From Clostridia bacterium (GTDB lineage: Bacteria; Bacillota; Clostridia; Oscillospirales; JAAYXM01): a stretch of 33,264 nucleotides of DNA. Both the position numbers and the translations under genes were made by a program. The DNA lies in NCBI GenBank assembly GCA_017559855.1, contig JAFYQP010000003.1:1-33264 (forward strand), in the 5' to 3' direction. Numbering within the stretch: position 1 is the first letter of the stretch; the number at the start of each line of letters is the position of its first letter. Positions 4,601-10,490 of the stretch are shown here, piece by piece. The notes under the pieces were generated by a model. That model was not told the origin of the DNA. It ran no database searches and saw nothing but the letters and a program-made list of their open reading frames with translations.

Positions 4601-5089
4601 ACGCATTGTTTTTGCATATTCAACGGCACTCTGCATATCACCTTGTAAAATGAGGCGAGGAATAGCACCCGCAATACATGCGGAAAGTGCAATAAGTCCC
4701 TCGCTATGCTCTCTTAAAAGGTCTAAATCGACACGGGGTTTATTATAAAAACCTTCGGTAAAGCCTCGACTTACCAAGTAACAAAGATTCTTGTATCCGG
4801 TCATGTTTTCACACAAAAGAACAAGATGGTACGACTCCGAGTCGATACCATGTACTTTATCAGTCATTTTGCGAGGTGCAACATATACCTCACATCCTAT
4901 AATCGGGTGAACGTCAGCACTCTTACACGCACGATAAAAGTCAATTACACCGTACATAACGCCGTGGTCGGTAATTGCAACTGCGTCCATGCCAAGACTT
5001 TTAACCCGCTTGGCGAGTTTGTCTATACGACAAGCACCGTCTAGCAGGCTGTATTCGCTATGTACATGAAGATGTGCAAAGCCACCCAT
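1643..5089 (-). CDS. dnaE: DNA polymerase III alpha subunit (DnaE1 type)
   Basis: Replicative or lagging-strand DNA polymerase, 1148 residues, the normal length for DnaE. An N-terminal PHP domain (about 1-210) carries HLHVH, TDHG, GCE, a His in YHLVLL, ALSAC and NDAH, so the usual metal ligands appear intact. The polymerase palm follows with GPGRGSAAGS and the catalytic PDIDIDF near residue 400, then HASTHAAGVV. Near residues 800-900 lies a helix-hairpin-helix region (VLPPDINES), and an OB fold lies near 980-1070 (GDIVLIAGSISS, YVVLEDVSGTLEVIVFP). The ATG at 5089 lies six bases behind the whiA stop; its ribosome binding site (GGAATGAGG) is inside the end of whiA, implying translational coupling. 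The extended PolC-type exonuclease is absent, so this is not PolC. Confidence 0.97.
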   Translation of the reverse strand: MGGFAHLHVHSEYSLLDGACRIDKLAKRVKSLGMDAVAITDHGVMYGVIDFYRACKSADVHPIIGCEVYVAPRKMTDKVHGIDSESYHLVLLCENMTGYKNLCYLVSRGFTEGFYNKPRVDLDLLREHSEGLIALSACIAGAIPRLILQGDMQSAVEYAKTMRDIFGEGNFFLEIQDHGIPEQKEVNRGVVRISRELGIDLVATNDAHYLTREDAKIQDVLMCIQMNKTVDDKDRMKFATDEFYIKSEDEMAELFPNFPEALANTGIIAARCNVEFDFSSHHLPQFDLPCDFEGDAEAYLRKLTYDGLNARYGDKAGEYKERLDFELSVITQMGYVDYFLIVWDFIAYAKNNGIPVGPGRGSAAGSIVSYCLYITDIDPVKYDLYFERFLNPERVSMPDIDIDFCVARREEVIEYVNKKYGVDRVAQIVTFGTMAARSAVRDVGRALNMPYADVDVVAKQIPEELHMTLERALDVSKTLRDMYESDPAVKTLIDTAMSLEGMPRHASTHAAGVVITKNPVYDYVPLARNDESIVTQFTMVTLEQLGLLKMDFLGLRNLTVLHDAARMVGNGFELSDIPEDDKFTFDNLSQGKTSGVFQVESGGMTSVVMRMKPQSIEEITAIVALFRPGPMDSIPTYIERKFNPEKISYKHPILRDILDITYGCIVYQEQVMRIFQTIAGFSLGRADMVRRAISKKKEKELLRERENFIHGNKEEGIAGAVANGISEQIANEIFDEIVAFANYAFNKAHAAAYSVITYQTAYMKFHHPKEFMAALLTSVLDKSEKIISYMELCREMGIKVLPPDINESVDTFTVVGDNIRFGLVAVKNIGRGFVQTVVDEREKNGRFTSLQDFCERMFERELNRRALENLIKCGAFDAFGTRNAQIQCYGRIMDSIAYNRSKNISGQIDLFGISGDEDINRVEIPNVPEYPKKELLALERQTTGLYLSGHPLDDYTAFLKRINVVHIASLSAEDRKYKDGDIVLIAGSISSVRTKMTRNNSMMAYVVLEDVSGTLEVIVFPKVLERFASTLRPDALVTVRGRVSDRENGNTQIICDEVRSLENYGARITEPEPAVPQNDNLKLFLRIDSRENPKFEILRELIMAFPGNRETVIFISGTNQRLKTTIAADERLVVQLENLLGGENVVLK

Positions 5090-5095
5090 TTGTCT

Positions 5096-6001
5096 TTACC
5101 TCATTCCTTTTGATATTTCGATTAATTTACGCAACCGATGATTAAGTCCGGATTTTGTCACCGTACCGCCTAAAATTTCACAAAGTTCGGTCATTGTTGC
5201 ATCAGGATTTGCAAGTCTTGCCACCGCAACCTCATATAACTGCGGCGTGAGGGTTTCTAGTCCTTTTGTATCTTTTATAATCTCAATCGCCTCAATTTGC
5301 TTCGCTGCTGCGTCAATTGTTTTTGATATATTTGCAACCTCACAATTACTGCGTCTGTTAATGGAATTACGCAGTTCCTTAAGTGCTTTTGCGTCCATAA
5401 CTCCCATTGCGGAGATAGGTGCCCCCATTCTCGTAAGAAGTTCCTCTATCTCCTCACTATCTTTAAAATAGACGATGTGGTTTCCCTTTCGCTGTGTAAT
5501 TCGTGCGTTGATTTCAAGTTCGTAAAGCAGAGCTTTAACCTCACGCACAAGATAATAATGTGACGTGACGAGTTCAAGATGATATTCATTAGCCGGGTCC
5601 ATAATCGAACCGCCGGACAAAAATGCTCCACGCAAAAATGCCGCACGACTCAAATCATCTTCCACAAGGGCACCGTTTAAATGAACGGTATGCGATCTAG
5701 TAAGATCAAACCCAAAGGACTCTAACACCTGCTTTAGTTTATCTTTATTTGTGATGCCAAGACTATGCTTCTTGGTTGCTTCACGAGGCACGATTTTCTT
5801 ATCAAAATCAAAACCGAATAGCATTTTGAGTATTCGGGATGCTCTGTGAGCAAAGTCCGGATTTTCGGTTGTTATTTTTATCTCATTCGCAGAGAATGTA
5901 TTGGCAAACAGAAACATTCCGCAAAGTTCGGCTATTTCGATTTTGTACTTATCAATTGGTGCATTGCATAGTTCTGCCTTAACTGTTCCAGAAAATGTCA
6001 T
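5096..6001 (-). CDS. whiA: WhiA-family DNA-binding regulator of cell division / sporulation
   Basis: WhiA combines an N-terminal LAGLIDADG homing-endonuclease-like fold (no nuclease activity known) with a C-terminal helix-turn-helix. Here the N-terminus is MTFSGTVKAELCN, as in family members. The central part has the ELCGMFLFA, AAFLRGAFLSGGSI and YHLELVTSHY blocks, and the C-terminus has NRRSNCEVANISKT followed by the HTH (LTPQLYEVAVARL...MTELCEILGG..TKSGLNHRLRKL). I start at ATG 6001, which has AGGTGA five bases upstream; an in-frame GTG at 6010 has no ribosome binding site. That gives 301 residues. The start overlaps the end of yvcK by 23 bases. In Streptomyces WhiA controls sporulation septation and in Bacillus it influences division and chromosome segregation; the role here is inferred. 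Confidence 0.95.
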   Translation of the reverse strand: MTFSGTVKAELCNAPIDKYKIEIAELCGMFLFANTFSANEIKITTENPDFAHRASRILKMLFGFDFDKKIVPREATKKHSLGITNKDKLKQVLESFGFDLTRSHTVHLNGALVEDDLSRAAFLRGAFLSGGSIMDPANEYHLELVTSHYYLVREVKALLYELEINARITQRKGNHIVYFKDSEEIEELLTRMGAPISAMGVMDAKALKELRNSINRRSNCEVANISKTIDAAAKQIEAIEIIKDTKGLETLTPQLYEVAVARLANPDATMTELCEILGGTVTKSGLNHRLRKLIEISKGMR

Positions 6002-6965
6002 TACTCTCACCTAATATTTCCATTAATACCCGTGCAAGTTTTTCCGAGTCGTGTCGTGCAAGGTTTCCGCCGGTGTTGAGTAGCGGTGCGGCGTAAAGTT
6101 TTATCCCCGCTTTTTCAAACAATTCTTCCTCAACAACTATCTTCTCTGCGCCCTCCTTGGCATAGCGTTTTTGGAGGGATGCGGGAATTTCCTCGCTATT
6201 AACAATACATGTATCAAAAATGCCACTGCAAGAGTGGTCAAAAAACGCCTTAACGTGGTCGAATGCGGTATATCCCTCGGTTTCTCCGCCTTGCGTCATA
6301 ACGTTGCACACGTATACCTTTTTTGCACGAGATAATCGAATAGCGTCAACCACGCCTTCTACAAGAAGATTTGGAATTATACTTGTATACAGACTTCCCG
6401 GACCGAAAACTATAAGTCTCGCCTGCAGGATGGCGTTTATTGCATCCCTGAGTGCTTGTGGCTTTTCGGGTACGATTTTAATTCTTGATATACGGCTGTT
6501 TTCCTCTCTTTTAGCATCGGCAATCTTAGACTCGCCTTTTACCGAAACGCCGTTTTCAAACTCTGCCACAAGATGTACGTCTTCTACCGTTACAGGTAAC
6601 ACCCTGCCGGAAATATTAAGAACGTCGGACATTTTAATAACCGCATCATAGAATGAACCGGTAACGCCGTTAAGTGCCGCTAAAAAAAGATTACCAAAAC
6701 TTTGTCCGTGCAGATTTCCGTCTGCAAAACGGTACGACAGGAGTTTTTTCATAAACGGCTCTGCATTGGAAAGTGCCACAATACAGTTTCGTATATCGCC
6801 GGGAGGCAGCATACCCAAATCACTTCTGAGCACACCGCTTCCACCGCCATCATCCATAACGGTAACTATTGCCGTTATGTTATCTGTGTGTTTTTTAAGA
6901 CCTCGCAGCATGGTAGAAAGTCCGGTGCCGCCACCGATAACTACAATTCCGCCGTCAGGTTTCAT
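5979..6965 (-). CDS. yvcK: YvcK/CofD-like protein (gluconeogenesis factor family)
   Basis: A 328-residue protein with the N-terminal nucleotide-binding start GGIVVIGGGTGLS, the family block TVMDDGGGSG near residue 35, LPPGDIRNCI, and LIVFGPGSLYTSIIPNLLV near residue 190. B. subtilis YvcK binds UDP-sugars and is needed for growth and peptidoglycan synthesis on gluconeogenic carbon sources; the same is inferred here. ATG at 6965 has AGGAGCG upstream. The gene lies 11 bases behind rapZ and overlaps whiA, the standard rapZ-yvcK-whiA cluster. The context favours YvcK over true CofD (F420 synthesis), as no other F420 gene is present. Confidence 0.94.
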   Translation of the reverse strand: MKPDGGIVVIGGGTGLSTMLRGLKKHTDNITAIVTVMDDGGGSGVLRSDLGMLPPGDIRNCIVALSNAEPFMKKLLSYRFADGNLHGQSFGNLFLAALNGVTGSFYDAVIKMSDVLNISGRVLPVTVEDVHLVAEFENGVSVKGESKIADAKREENSRISRIKIVPEKPQALRDAINAILQARLIVFGPGSLYTSIIPNLLVEGVVDAIRLSRAKKVYVCNVMTQGGETEGYTAFDHVKAFFDHSCSGIFDTCIVNSEEIPASLQKRYAKEGAEKIVVEEELFEKAGIKLYAAPLLNTGGNLARHDSEKLARVLMEILGESNDIFWNS

Positions 6966-6976
6966 AAAAATCGCTC

Positions 6977-7840
6977 CTATTCACGACCTGCGTCACGATG
7001 CATAGCGGTTGCGGAATAACCCGCATCCTGCAAGTGACGGGCCAAAGTTTCGGATATTGCCACCGAGCGGTGTTTACCGCCGGTACATCCGATAGAAACC
7101 ACAAGAGATGTCTTACCCTCTTCGATATAATGGGGTACTAAAAAGTCACATATGGAATATAAATGTTTTAAAAATTCGTGCGTTTGATCAAAGGACATAA
7201 CGTAATCATAAACAGGTTTATCTTTGCCGGTTTGTACTCTGAGTTCAGGAATGTAGTACGGATTAGGAAGGAAACGAACGTCGAACACAAGGTCCGACTC
7301 TACCGGGATACCGTATTTAAAACCATAGGACATTACGGTAATATTAAAGGACTTATCAAGTGCCCCGCTTTCTGCAAACAATTCAAATACACGCTCACGA
7401 AGTTTTGCGGAGCCTAGGTTTGTTGTGTCGACAATAAAGTCCGCACGAACACGCACTTCTTCAAGCATCTTGTGTTCACGCTCTATAGCCTCTTTTGTTG
7501 ATATGCCTTCGCCGGTCAAAGGGTGGCGACGTCTGGTCTCCTTATATCTGCGAATAATTGTTTCGGTTGACGCCTCAAAGTAGAGTATGCGATAGGTACA
7601 ATCTAAGTCCTTAAGACAGTCAAGTGCTTCAAAAAGTGTGTTAAACTCATCACCGCTTCTTACGTCGGTAACAAGTACAACCTTCTCATACCTACCCTTC
7701 GTTGCAATGCACATCTCTGCAAATTTAGGAATAAGTGCCGCGGGCATATTATCAACGCAATAGTACCCTAAATCTTCCAATATGGCAGCACCGCTACTCT
7801 TACCTGCTCCTGACATACCCGATAAAATTATAAATTCCAT
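6977..7840 (-). CDS. rapZ: RapZ/YvcJ-family nucleotide-binding protein
   Basis: A 287-residue protein with P-loop GMSGAGKSS near residues 8-16, then LEDLGYYCVDNMPAAL, a conserved block around YKETRRRHPL, DTTNLG, and a C-terminal domain with FDVRFLPNPYYIPELR, VSIGCTGGKHRS and a terminal basic segment. RapZ in E. coli is an RNA-binding adaptor sensing glucosamine 6-phosphate or UDP-GlcNAc precursors and recruiting RNase E. In Gram-positives the homologue YvcJ has nucleotidase activity and its role is less clear. ATG at 7840 follows AGGGG; the gene is 11 bases behind murB. Linkage to murB and yvcK fits a role near cell-wall precursor supply, which is inference. Confidence 0.95.
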   Translation of the reverse strand: MEFIILSGMSGAGKSSGAAILEDLGYYCVDNMPAALIPKFAEMCIATKGRYEKVVLVTDVRSGDEFNTLFEALDCLKDLDCTYRILYFEASTETIIRRYKETRRRHPLTGEGISTKEAIEREHKMLEEVRVRADFIVDTTNLGSAKLRERVFELFAESGALDKSFNITVMSYGFKYGIPVESDLVFDVRFLPNPYYIPELRVQTGKDKPVYDYVMSFDQTHEFLKHLYSICDFLVPHYIEEGKTSLVVSIGCTGGKHRSVAISETLARHLQDAGYSATAMHRDAGRE

Positions 7841-7851
7841 TCCTTCAACCC

Positions 7852-8769
7852 CTAATTTTTATTCGGTGCAAACTGCACCTCACATTCCAATTCAACGCCA
7901 AAATTTTTAAACACGGTTTCCTTTATATGTGATATAAGATTTTTAACGTCTGCACATGTGGCATTTCCTGTATTGACGATAAATCCCGCATGTTTTTCAG
8001 ACACTTGTGCACCGCCGATGCTAAATCCTTTAAGTCCGCTTTTTTCAATAAGTTCACCCGTAAAATGTCCGCGAGGACGCTTGAAGACGCTTCCTGCAGA
8101 TGGGATCCCTATCGGCTGTTTATCCACTCTTCGTAACGTAAAATCAGCCATTTTCGCCTCTATTAAATCTACATCACAAGGGGTAAGTTTTAACTTCGCT
8201 TCTAAAATCACACATCCCGGTTTTTTCTTAAAGCAACTTGTTCTGTATCCGAAATCAAGCGATTCGTTCGACAAAGTCATTAACATTCCACGCTCATTTA
8301 TAAATGTAACGCTCTCCACAATCCGGCTCATCTCGCCGTCATATGCACCGGCATTCATAAAAATTGCACCACCGAGAGTGCCGGGTATTCCACAGGCAAA
8401 TTCCATGCCTGAAAGCCCCGATCGCTTTGCTACGTTTGACAATTTCGCAAGAGATTTACCGGCTGATGCAACTATGTAATCACCATTTATCGTGTGTAAA
8501 TCATTTGAAATTTCAAACACGACACCGGATATTCCCTCATCATCAACAAGAAGGTTGCTTCCGTTACCGATAATAAATGGCTCGATACCAAGTTCTTTTG
8601 CCTTGCATACCGCTTTTTCAACAACGTTTGAGGTTTTTAAACTGCAAAAAACTTCAGCAGGACCACCGATTTTAAACGTTGTATGTCTACTCATCGGCTC
8701 ATTCTCGAAAATTTCTATATCCGGATGTCCTCTGAGATATTTACACAATTGTTTTAGTTTCGTTTCCAT
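7852..8769 (-). CDS. murB: UDP-N-acetylenolpyruvoylglucosamine reductase
   Basis: FAD-dependent reduction of UDP-GlcNAc-enolpyruvate to UDP-MurNAc, the second committed step of peptidoglycan synthesis. Motifs in order: NEPMSRHTTFKIGG (N-terminus), IIGNGSNLLVDDEG (FAD-binding), GIPGTLGGAIFMNAGAY, FGYRTSCFK, and the C-terminal catalytic PSAGSVFKRP with GFSIGGAQVSEKHAGFIVN. Length 305 residues matches type II MurB of Firmicutes. I start at ATG 8769, seven bases after AAGGTGG; an in-frame GTG at 8775 is possible but sits inside that ribosome binding site. It is followed by rapZ. Confidence 0.96.
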   Translation of the reverse strand: METKLKQLCKYLRGHPDIEIFENEPMSRHTTFKIGGPAEVFCSLKTSNVVEKAVCKAKELGIEPFIIGNGSNLLVDDEGISGVVFEISNDLHTINGDYIVASAGKSLAKLSNVAKRSGLSGMEFACGIPGTLGGAIFMNAGAYDGEMSRIVESVTFINERGMLMTLSNESLDFGYRTSCFKKKPGCVILEAKLKLTPCDVDLIEAKMADFTLRRVDKQPIGIPSAGSVFKRPRGHFTGELIEKSGLKGFSIGGAQVSEKHAGFIVNTGNATCADVKNLISHIKETVFKNFGVELECEVQFAPNKN

Positions 8770-8806
8770 AGCCACACCACCTTACTATATTGTACCACAA
8801 AAAAGT

Positions 8807-10099
8807 TCAAATTAAAACACCCATAAGGTAATCATCTTTCACTTTTTTAATTTCAACGTTCATTACTTGATTTTTAAGGTCACGCTCACTTCTCACGCGG
8901 ACGGGGATATAATTTTCAGAATGTCCCTGCCACATACCGTCGCAAACCTCTTCAAACAATACGCTGCACGCTTTACCCACTTGTTTTTCCCAAAACACAT
9001 ACCGCATCCGCATTTCAACCGCAGATGCAAATGCTGCACGTTCTTCTTTGATGCTTTTTTCTATTTGATCCGACATTTTTGCCGCAGGCGTTCCCTCACG
9101 CTTTGAATATGGGAAAATATGCATCATACTGAAATCGCATTTTTTTATAAATTCCAGAGTTTCGTCAAATTCTTCATTCGTCTCACCGGGGAATCCTACA
9201 ATTAAGTCGGTAGTTATTGCACAATTTTCAAAATTTTCTCTTATAAGTTTTACCGACTTTAAATAACGTGCAGTGTCGTACTTTCTTCTCATACGGGCAA
9301 GTGTTGCATCCGAACCGCTTTGAAGGGATAGATGAAACTGCGGACATAGATTTTTAAAATCCTTTAAAAGATTACAAAATCCCTCGTCAATCGTACGTGG
9401 CTCAAGTGAACCTAAACGGATTCTCACATTTGGTACCGCTTTGCAAATTTCCGCAATAAGTTCGCCGATTTCCCTTTTGGGTTTTAGGTCAACACCATAT
9501 GAGGATATCTCAATACCTGTAATTATAATCTCACGATAACCCTCTCTCTCAAGACGTTTCGCCTCTGATACTGCAAGGTCAAAAGGCATTGAACGGATAG
9601 GGCCTCGTGTATACGGAATAATACAGTACGTGCAGAAATTAACGCATCCGTCCTGAACTTTCAGCATTGCACGGGTATGATGAGACAGTCCGCCTGCAGG
9701 TAAAATTTCAAACTCCCGACGGGCAAGTGCTTTATCGACGCTTATCTGCATTTGTCTGTCCTCTACCGCTTTTTCAATCATATCGAAAAACGCCCGCTTG
9801 TCGTTGGTTCCCGATACAACGTGCACACCCTCTATCGCCGCCGCACCGTCGGGATTCGCCTGAGAAAAACATCCACACACCGCAATAACCGAGTCTTTAT
9901 TTGCACGTATTGTTTTGCGTATAAGTTGGCGTGATTTCTTGTCACTAACAGCGGTGACACTACACGTGTTTATAACGAAAGCATCGGCACCCTCTGAAAA
10001 CGGCACTATAACGTGACCTTTTTCTTTTGCGATAAGTTCAAGCGCCTGAGTTTCAAACTGATTAACTTTACACCCCAAGGTTGCAAAGGCTATTCGCAT
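8807..10099 (-). CDS. mtaB: tRNA (N6-threonylcarbamoyladenosine(37)) methylthiotransferase
   Basis: Radical-SAM enzyme that converts t6A37 to ms2t6A37 in ANN-decoding tRNAs. The N-terminal methylthiotransferase domain has three Cys (TLGCKVNQFE, NTCSVT, AVCGCFSQ) for one cluster. The radical-SAM motif CVNFCTYCIIPYTRG supplies the second, followed by GIEISSYG, LGSLEP, LSLQSGSD, TDLIVGFPGE and a C-terminal TRAM-like domain. The sequence TLGCKVNQFETQ and length (430 residues) fit MtaB rather than MiaB or RimO. I choose ATG 10099, nine bases after GGAG; an in-frame TTG at 10114 overlaps that ribosome binding site. It is the first gene of the minus-strand block, and its promoter is not clear. Confidence 0.93.
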   Translation of the reverse strand: MRIAFATLGCKVNQFETQALELIAKEKGHVIVPFSEGADAFVINTCSVTAVSDKKSRQLIRKTIRANKDSVIAVCGCFSQANPDGAAAIEGVHVVSGTNDKRAFFDMIEKAVEDRQMQISVDKALARREFEILPAGGLSHHTRAMLKVQDGCVNFCTYCIIPYTRGPIRSMPFDLAVSEAKRLEREGYREIIITGIEISSYGVDLKPKREIGELIAEICKAVPNVRIRLGSLEPRTIDEGFCNLLKDFKNLCPQFHLSLQSGSDATLARMRRKYDTARYLKSVKLIRENFENCAITTDLIVGFPGETNEEFDETLEFIKKCDFSMMHIFPYSKREGTPAAKMSDQIEKSIKEERAAFASAVEMRMRYVFWEKQVGKACSVLFEEVCDGMWQGHSENYIPVRVRSERDLKNQVMNVEIKKVKDDYLMGVLI

Positions 10100-10129
10100 A
10101 AGTAATTTCTCCAAATTTTATATTTATAC

Positions 10130-10159
10130 TTGCAAAATTTATCCTATTAGTATTATAAT
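10130..10159 (+). promoter_or_regulatory. Promoter of the HPr-like gene
   Basis: Plus strand: -35 TTGCAA (10130-10135), 18-base spacer, -10 TATAAT (10154-10159); start near 10166. It lies in the divergent region with mtaB, about 30 bases upstream of the mtaB start. Confidence 0.7.
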
Positions 10160-10211
10160 GGATAAAGTTGATATTAGGCAATAGAAAATCTCAAAATTAG
10201 GGGGCGATTTT

Positions 10212-10448
10212 TTGACCGCTTTTAATATTAAACTTTCATCTATCAACGATGTTAAAGCACTTGTAAATGCCGCAACCGAGATGGAGTGTGAAATTGACCT
10301 TATTTCAGGTCGATATGTAATCAATGCAAAGTCTTTAATCGGCATATTCAGCATTGACCTTACAAAGCCTATCACCGTTGAAGTGCATGGCAGTGACGAC
10401 GAGGCTGCTCGTTTCAAAGAAATACTCGGTGACTGTATAGTTGAATAG
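10212..10448 (+). CDS. HPr/Crh-like protein without the phosphocarrier histidine
   Basis: A 78-residue protein starting at TTG 10212 behind AGGGGGCGA. The C-terminal half follows the HPr pattern: YVINAKSLIGIFSIDL around residues 35-50 corresponds to the HPr segment KSIMGVMSLG, with Ser41 at the place of the regulatory Ser46, then a TVEVHGSDDEAARF strand-helix. The N-terminal half has no HARPA motif and no His at position 15, so it cannot act as a PTS phosphocarrier. In B. subtilis Crh, an HPr paralogue lacking His15, is phosphorylated on Ser46 by HPrK and serves CcpA; crh lies in the yvcJ-yvcK-whiA operon there. A similar regulatory role is plausible but unproven. The gene stands alone between its own promoter and a strong terminator. 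Confidence 0.8.
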   Translation: MTAFNIKLSSINDVKALVNAATEMECEIDLISGRYVINAKSLIGIFSIDLTKPITVEVHGSDDEAARFKEILGDCIVE

Positions 10449-10450
10449 CG

Positions 10451-10490
10451 AAAACGGTTGAAGGGAACCTTCAACCGTTTTTTATTTTAT
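10451..10490. terminator. Bidirectional terminator between the HPr-like gene and dacF
   Basis: A 14-bp stem (10451-10464 with 10468-10481, loop GAA) is followed by TTTATTTTAT on the plus strand. On the minus strand the stem ends in TTTTCG. The stop codon of dacF lies inside the stem, so the two convergent genes share it. Confidence 0.88.

Follow-up and report, generated by a model that had tools for sequence, protein, structure and literature searches.

The locus described here raises the question of what an HPr-like protein does when it has no histidine with which to carry phosphate, and whether its place near a rapZ-yvcK-whiA cluster is a clue to its role. The window, a 33,264-nucleotide stretch of DNA from a Clostridia bacterium, contains on its forward strand, at 10212-10448, an open reading frame that begins with TTG and encodes a protein of 78 residues. 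The reading frame, the Pfam model PF00381, the AlphaFold2 model and Foldseek together identify the product as a His-less HPr-like protein with a putative regulatory serine at position 41. The first-pass annotation had suggested a regulatory HPr, independently derived or strongly diverged, that may link carbon status to the nearby cluster.

The reading frame is a real gene. A probable ribosome-binding site, AGGGGG (10199-10204, forward strand), lies 7 bases 5' of the TTG, and relatives of the protein have a Met start at the position aligned with it. Codon differences among the orthologues from six relatives in the window's family of genomes fall mainly at the third position (for example 0/1/27 and 7/3/30 at positions 1, 2 and 3), a bias that shows the gene to be constrained at the level of the protein. 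The terminator of its own that the gene had been credited with was located, as was a candidate for its promoter. A promoter-like site, TTGCAA-18-TATAAT, occupies 10130-10159 on the forward strand, with the core GTATTATA kept in five genomes of the family, although promoter-like sites around the gene are about as numerous as chance would give in this region. A strong intrinsic terminator (-20.5 kcal/mol, z -6.2) follows at 10450-10482, also on the forward strand. The divergent neighbour mtaB has a promoter-like site on the reverse strand at 10152-10181, which is kept in the window's family and not in other families. The -10 boxes of the two genes overlap in a single symmetric core, 10152-10159, whose conservation is likewise limited to the family; when 63 divergent loci were scanned, a symmetric shared promoter did not emerge as a feature of the class. 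The same scan found near-consensus promoters of the TTGAC type 5' of the HPr-like gene in nearly all of the loci.

Model PF00381 finds the window protein with 27.3 bits, over its curated cut-off of 23, and matches 41 of 41 aligned members of the HPr-like family at E<=0.001. The NCBIfam model for HPr family phosphocarriers, TIGR01003, scores it at 23.9 bits, below a cut-off of 47.9. AlphaFold2, given 41 aligned sequences, predicts a confident structure (pLDDT 93.3) with the order E-H-E-E-H-E-H, for which the top Foldseek matches are HPr structures at a TMq of about 0.75; among the matches, at about 0.7-0.78, are complexes of HPr with its kinase (1kkl), of HPr with CcpA (1rzr), and of Crh with CcpA (1zvv). 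In alignment to HPr of known structure, Ser41, within the motif AKSLIGIF, falls on Ser46 of HPr, where helix 2 has its N-terminus (codon 10332-10334, forward strand), and the predicted helix 42-46 starts directly after it. Serine occupies this position in 125 of 125 distinct cores; the search pattern left the position free, some loci were retrieved by patterns that contain the serine, and the class sample described below was chosen otherwise, by profile. His15 and the HARPA motif (GxHARP) are absent from the window protein and from the aligned relatives, in which the active-site loop as a whole is deleted. The sole histidine of the window protein, H59, was considered as a substitute phosphohistidine and rejected, as other members have Tyr, Phe, Pro, or Gln there. 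Judged by its sequence, the family cannot serve as a phosphocarrier, and the combination of an HPr fold, an invariant serine and the lack of a phosphocarrier histidine makes a regulatory HPr likely. The first-pass description of an HPr-like protein with Ser41 in AKSLIGIF and no phosphocarrier His or HARPA therefore stands. That annotation had called for a PF00381 search, a structural comparison, and a survey of the serine, with an HPr-unlike fold or loss of the serine in relatives as grounds for doubt; the searches gave the matches above, and neither ground for doubt was encountered.

The family is old and common in clostridia. A scan of named genomes yielded at least 432 relatives, from which 80 loci were kept, with records that are either clostridial or unspecifically bacterial. 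Of 118 genomes sampled evenly over the class, 70 have a member at E<=1e-20. A tree over 85 columns places all members on one branch (SH-aLRT 100), whose stem is long at 2.41 changes per column and outside of which both HPr and Crh fall, Crh among the full-length HPrs; many forks are open and the deeper order is unsettled. For B. subtilis, the HPr and Crh sequences used in this tree match the stretches shown in the PDB. An independent local origin of the window protein is rejected by this tree, in which the protein is probably neither a locally diverged Crh nor derived in this lineage but one member of a class-wide group that stands apart from HPr and Crh. The family is already present, and routinely named, in databases: the member from Monoglobus pectinilyticus is annotated at NCBI as an HPr family phosphocarrier protein, a name that misleads, as the sequence excludes that role. 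We found no study of the family in the open-licence literature.

The window genome encodes three proteins over the PF00381 cut-off, none with His15: the window protein, a sister copy whose gene lies behind that of a SulP-like transporter, and a full-length HPr in which the motif GLRARPA puts Arg at position 15. The full-length protein (G000:C31:11251-11490) has Arg15 also in all eight relatives examined, in a family of genomes without detected Enzyme I. Full-length HPrs of other genomes without detected Enzyme I include several that have lost His15 in different ways (for example to Gln, Tyr, Asn, Glu, or Lys) and kept Ser46, and others that read GLHARPA. HPr kinase is present in the window genome (G000:C55, 241 bits), with the P-loop GESGVGKSET in its translation. 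The Enzyme I N-domain gave no match over cut-off in nine of nine genomes of the family, including the window's; for a CcpA-like LacI regulator, the CcpA model gave no match at E<=1e-20 in the window genome, and no genome of the family had a match over cut-off. The window genome is 96% complete, and single absences are therefore provisional. Across the 118 genomes, HPr kinase was found in 69 of 70 carriers of the HPr-like family versus 25 of 48 non-carriers (Fisher 3e-10), and after collapsing by taxonomic family in 30 of 30 versus 14 of 24 (8e-5), a comparison in which relatedness is only roughly controlled and shared ancestry may explain part of the association. The B. subtilis control gave no match in the HPr kinase search, so some of the HPr kinase absences may be false. 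Enzyme I, by comparison, occurs in 25 of 70 carriers and 19 of 48 non-carriers (p 0.70). From these counts, the HPr-like family goes with the serine kinase and neither favours nor avoids the phosphotransferase system (PTS).

From the sequence, the structural model, the co-occurrence with HPr kinase but not with Enzyme I, and the recurrent divergent pairing with mtaB, we consider it likely that the HPr-like protein is a dedicated substrate of HPr kinase/phosphorylase that acts independently of the PTS. In known Firmicutes, this enzyme responds to fructose-1,6-bisphosphate, ATP, and phosphate. By the proposed mechanism, it would phosphorylate Ser41 under an ample supply of glycolytic carbon and remove the phosphate when carbon is scarce, and a phosphate at the start of helix 2 would, as in Crh, alter how the protein binds a partner. 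In the window genome this partner is unlikely to be CcpA, since no CcpA-like LacI regulator was found there; MgsA and the MtaB/translation neighbourhood are candidates. In HPr, His15 and Arg17 contribute to contacts with partners, and as the HPr-like protein lacks the equivalents of both, recognition by the kinase is not assured. If members of the family are targets of HPr kinase, an HPr kinase circuit is at work in many gut and cellulolytic Clostridia even though they have no PTS, and the family would offer a handle on its output: one small gene, one serine, and one recurrent neighbour.

That the window protein is instead the organism's own diverged Crh, serving rapZ-yvcK-whiA, is suggested by its missing histidine, its conserved serine, and its position. 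As the first-pass annotation had observed, the gene lies 2 kb from the cluster on the other strand; on the reverse strand follow mtaB (8807-10114), which encodes the tRNA t6A37 methylthiotransferase (TIGR01579, 422.7 bits over cut-off), a murB-like gene (7852-8775, named from sequence and used as a reference), then rapZ-like (6977-7840), yvcK (glmR)-like (5979-6965), and whiA-like (5096-6010) genes, the last three assigned from reading frame and synteny, with mtaB and murB thus between the HPr-like gene and the start of rapZ at 7840. Crh is, moreover, the best PDB sequence match of the family profile. The survey of linkage to yvcK gives a different picture, however. The cluster lies beside the HPr-like gene in one of the 80 named loci, that of a genome in the window's family, while mtaB does so in 72. 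Within the window's family, orthologues are present in six of eight relatives, and as far as their contigs reach all of them diverge from mtaB-murB-rapZ-yvcK-whiA-dnaE. The cluster lies near the gene in that family alone, because mtaB abuts the cluster there. A general linkage to rapZ-yvcK-whiA is accordingly rejected. In B. subtilis, Crh is encoded behind whiA (PMC10714963). In the window, whiA adjoins dnaE, which ends at 5089, with no room for an HPr or Crh gene between them, and in six other genomes, examined in the region of hprK, whiA is followed by a different, full-length HPr about 20-25 bases 3' of it, with which the gene order ends; those six carry the His-less family too. An empty Crh slot in the window and a full-length HPr in that slot elsewhere indicate that the window protein is not the Crh of the cluster. 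The well-supported separate branch and the deletion of the HARPA loop, where a Crh would merely have its histidine changed, point the same way, and we regard this reading as very unlikely. Of the first-pass proposal, then, the regulatory HPr holds as likely, whereas a special tie to the cluster and an independent origin find no support.

The recurrent neighbour suggests instead an action on MtaB or on mtaB expression that would couple carbon status to ms2t6A tRNA modification. Divergent mtaB lies 114-508 bases away in 35 of the 70 sampled carriers, from 14 families and always in the identical arrangement, in keeping with its frequency among the named loci, and in the window's family the symmetric -10 core would serve both directions. 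Yet MtaB is found in 115 of 118 genomes, with or without the HPr-like gene; the other half of the sampled carriers has different neighbours, or the gene at a contig end; and a shared promoter alone can preserve a divergent pair, and the shared core was not seen outside of the family. We judge a functional tie to MtaB improbable. The broader proposition is a class-wide branch of HPr kinase signalling without the PTS, apparently without CcpA in the window's lineage, with a dedicated target family that MtaB would connect to tRNA modification; it is very unlikely, and if true, glycolytic state would feed into translation. Regulation of MgsA has a precedent in B. subtilis, where MgsA is a target of Crh in its unphosphorylated form (PMC9631020, PMC10714963), and MgsA is encoded in eight of nine genomes of the family, including the window's. 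However, the genes seen to recur beside the HPr-like gene did not include mgsA, and the full-length Arg15 HPr that the window genome also encodes could fill this role just as well, which leaves this reading conceivable but rather unlikely. Loss of the active-site loop might, finally, mark a degenerate HPr without function, an explanation that is hardly credible given the strong third-position bias, the class-wide presence, the invariant serine, and the TTGAC-type promoters retained at nearly all divergent loci.

The HPr-like protein probably works like Crh. Both have the HPr fold, lack His15, and keep the serine targeted by the kinase, but Crh is of full length with a substituted His15 whereas the family has lost the whole active-site loop, and the Crh gene stands behind whiA whereas the family is encoded elsewhere and forms its own branch. 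With HPr (PtsH) the family shares the fold and the Ser46 region; unlike HPr, it has no phosphocarrier histidine and is present irrespective of Enzyme I. The nearest account in the literature is a model of Crh-like control for Ccel_0806 of Clostridium cellulolyticum, a clostridium said to be without an HPr orthologue and cognate EII (PMC3656788); the likeness lies in the proposed Crh-type control put forward by that model. The solved HPr-family protein of R. cellulolyticum, 7ff5, differs from the family in being of full length, with GLDSKAA.

A search among carriers without mtaB for a second general neighbour returned lineage-specific ones only, such as activator/dehydratase-like genes in seven loci. 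In these seven, the HPr-like gene is divergent from dehydratase-activator-like genes, named from their sequence only, rather than from mtaB. Two loci have the HPr-like gene directly 5' of ireB-like and ruvX-like genes (also so named) on the same strand, and two loci carry a tandem pair of HPr-like genes.
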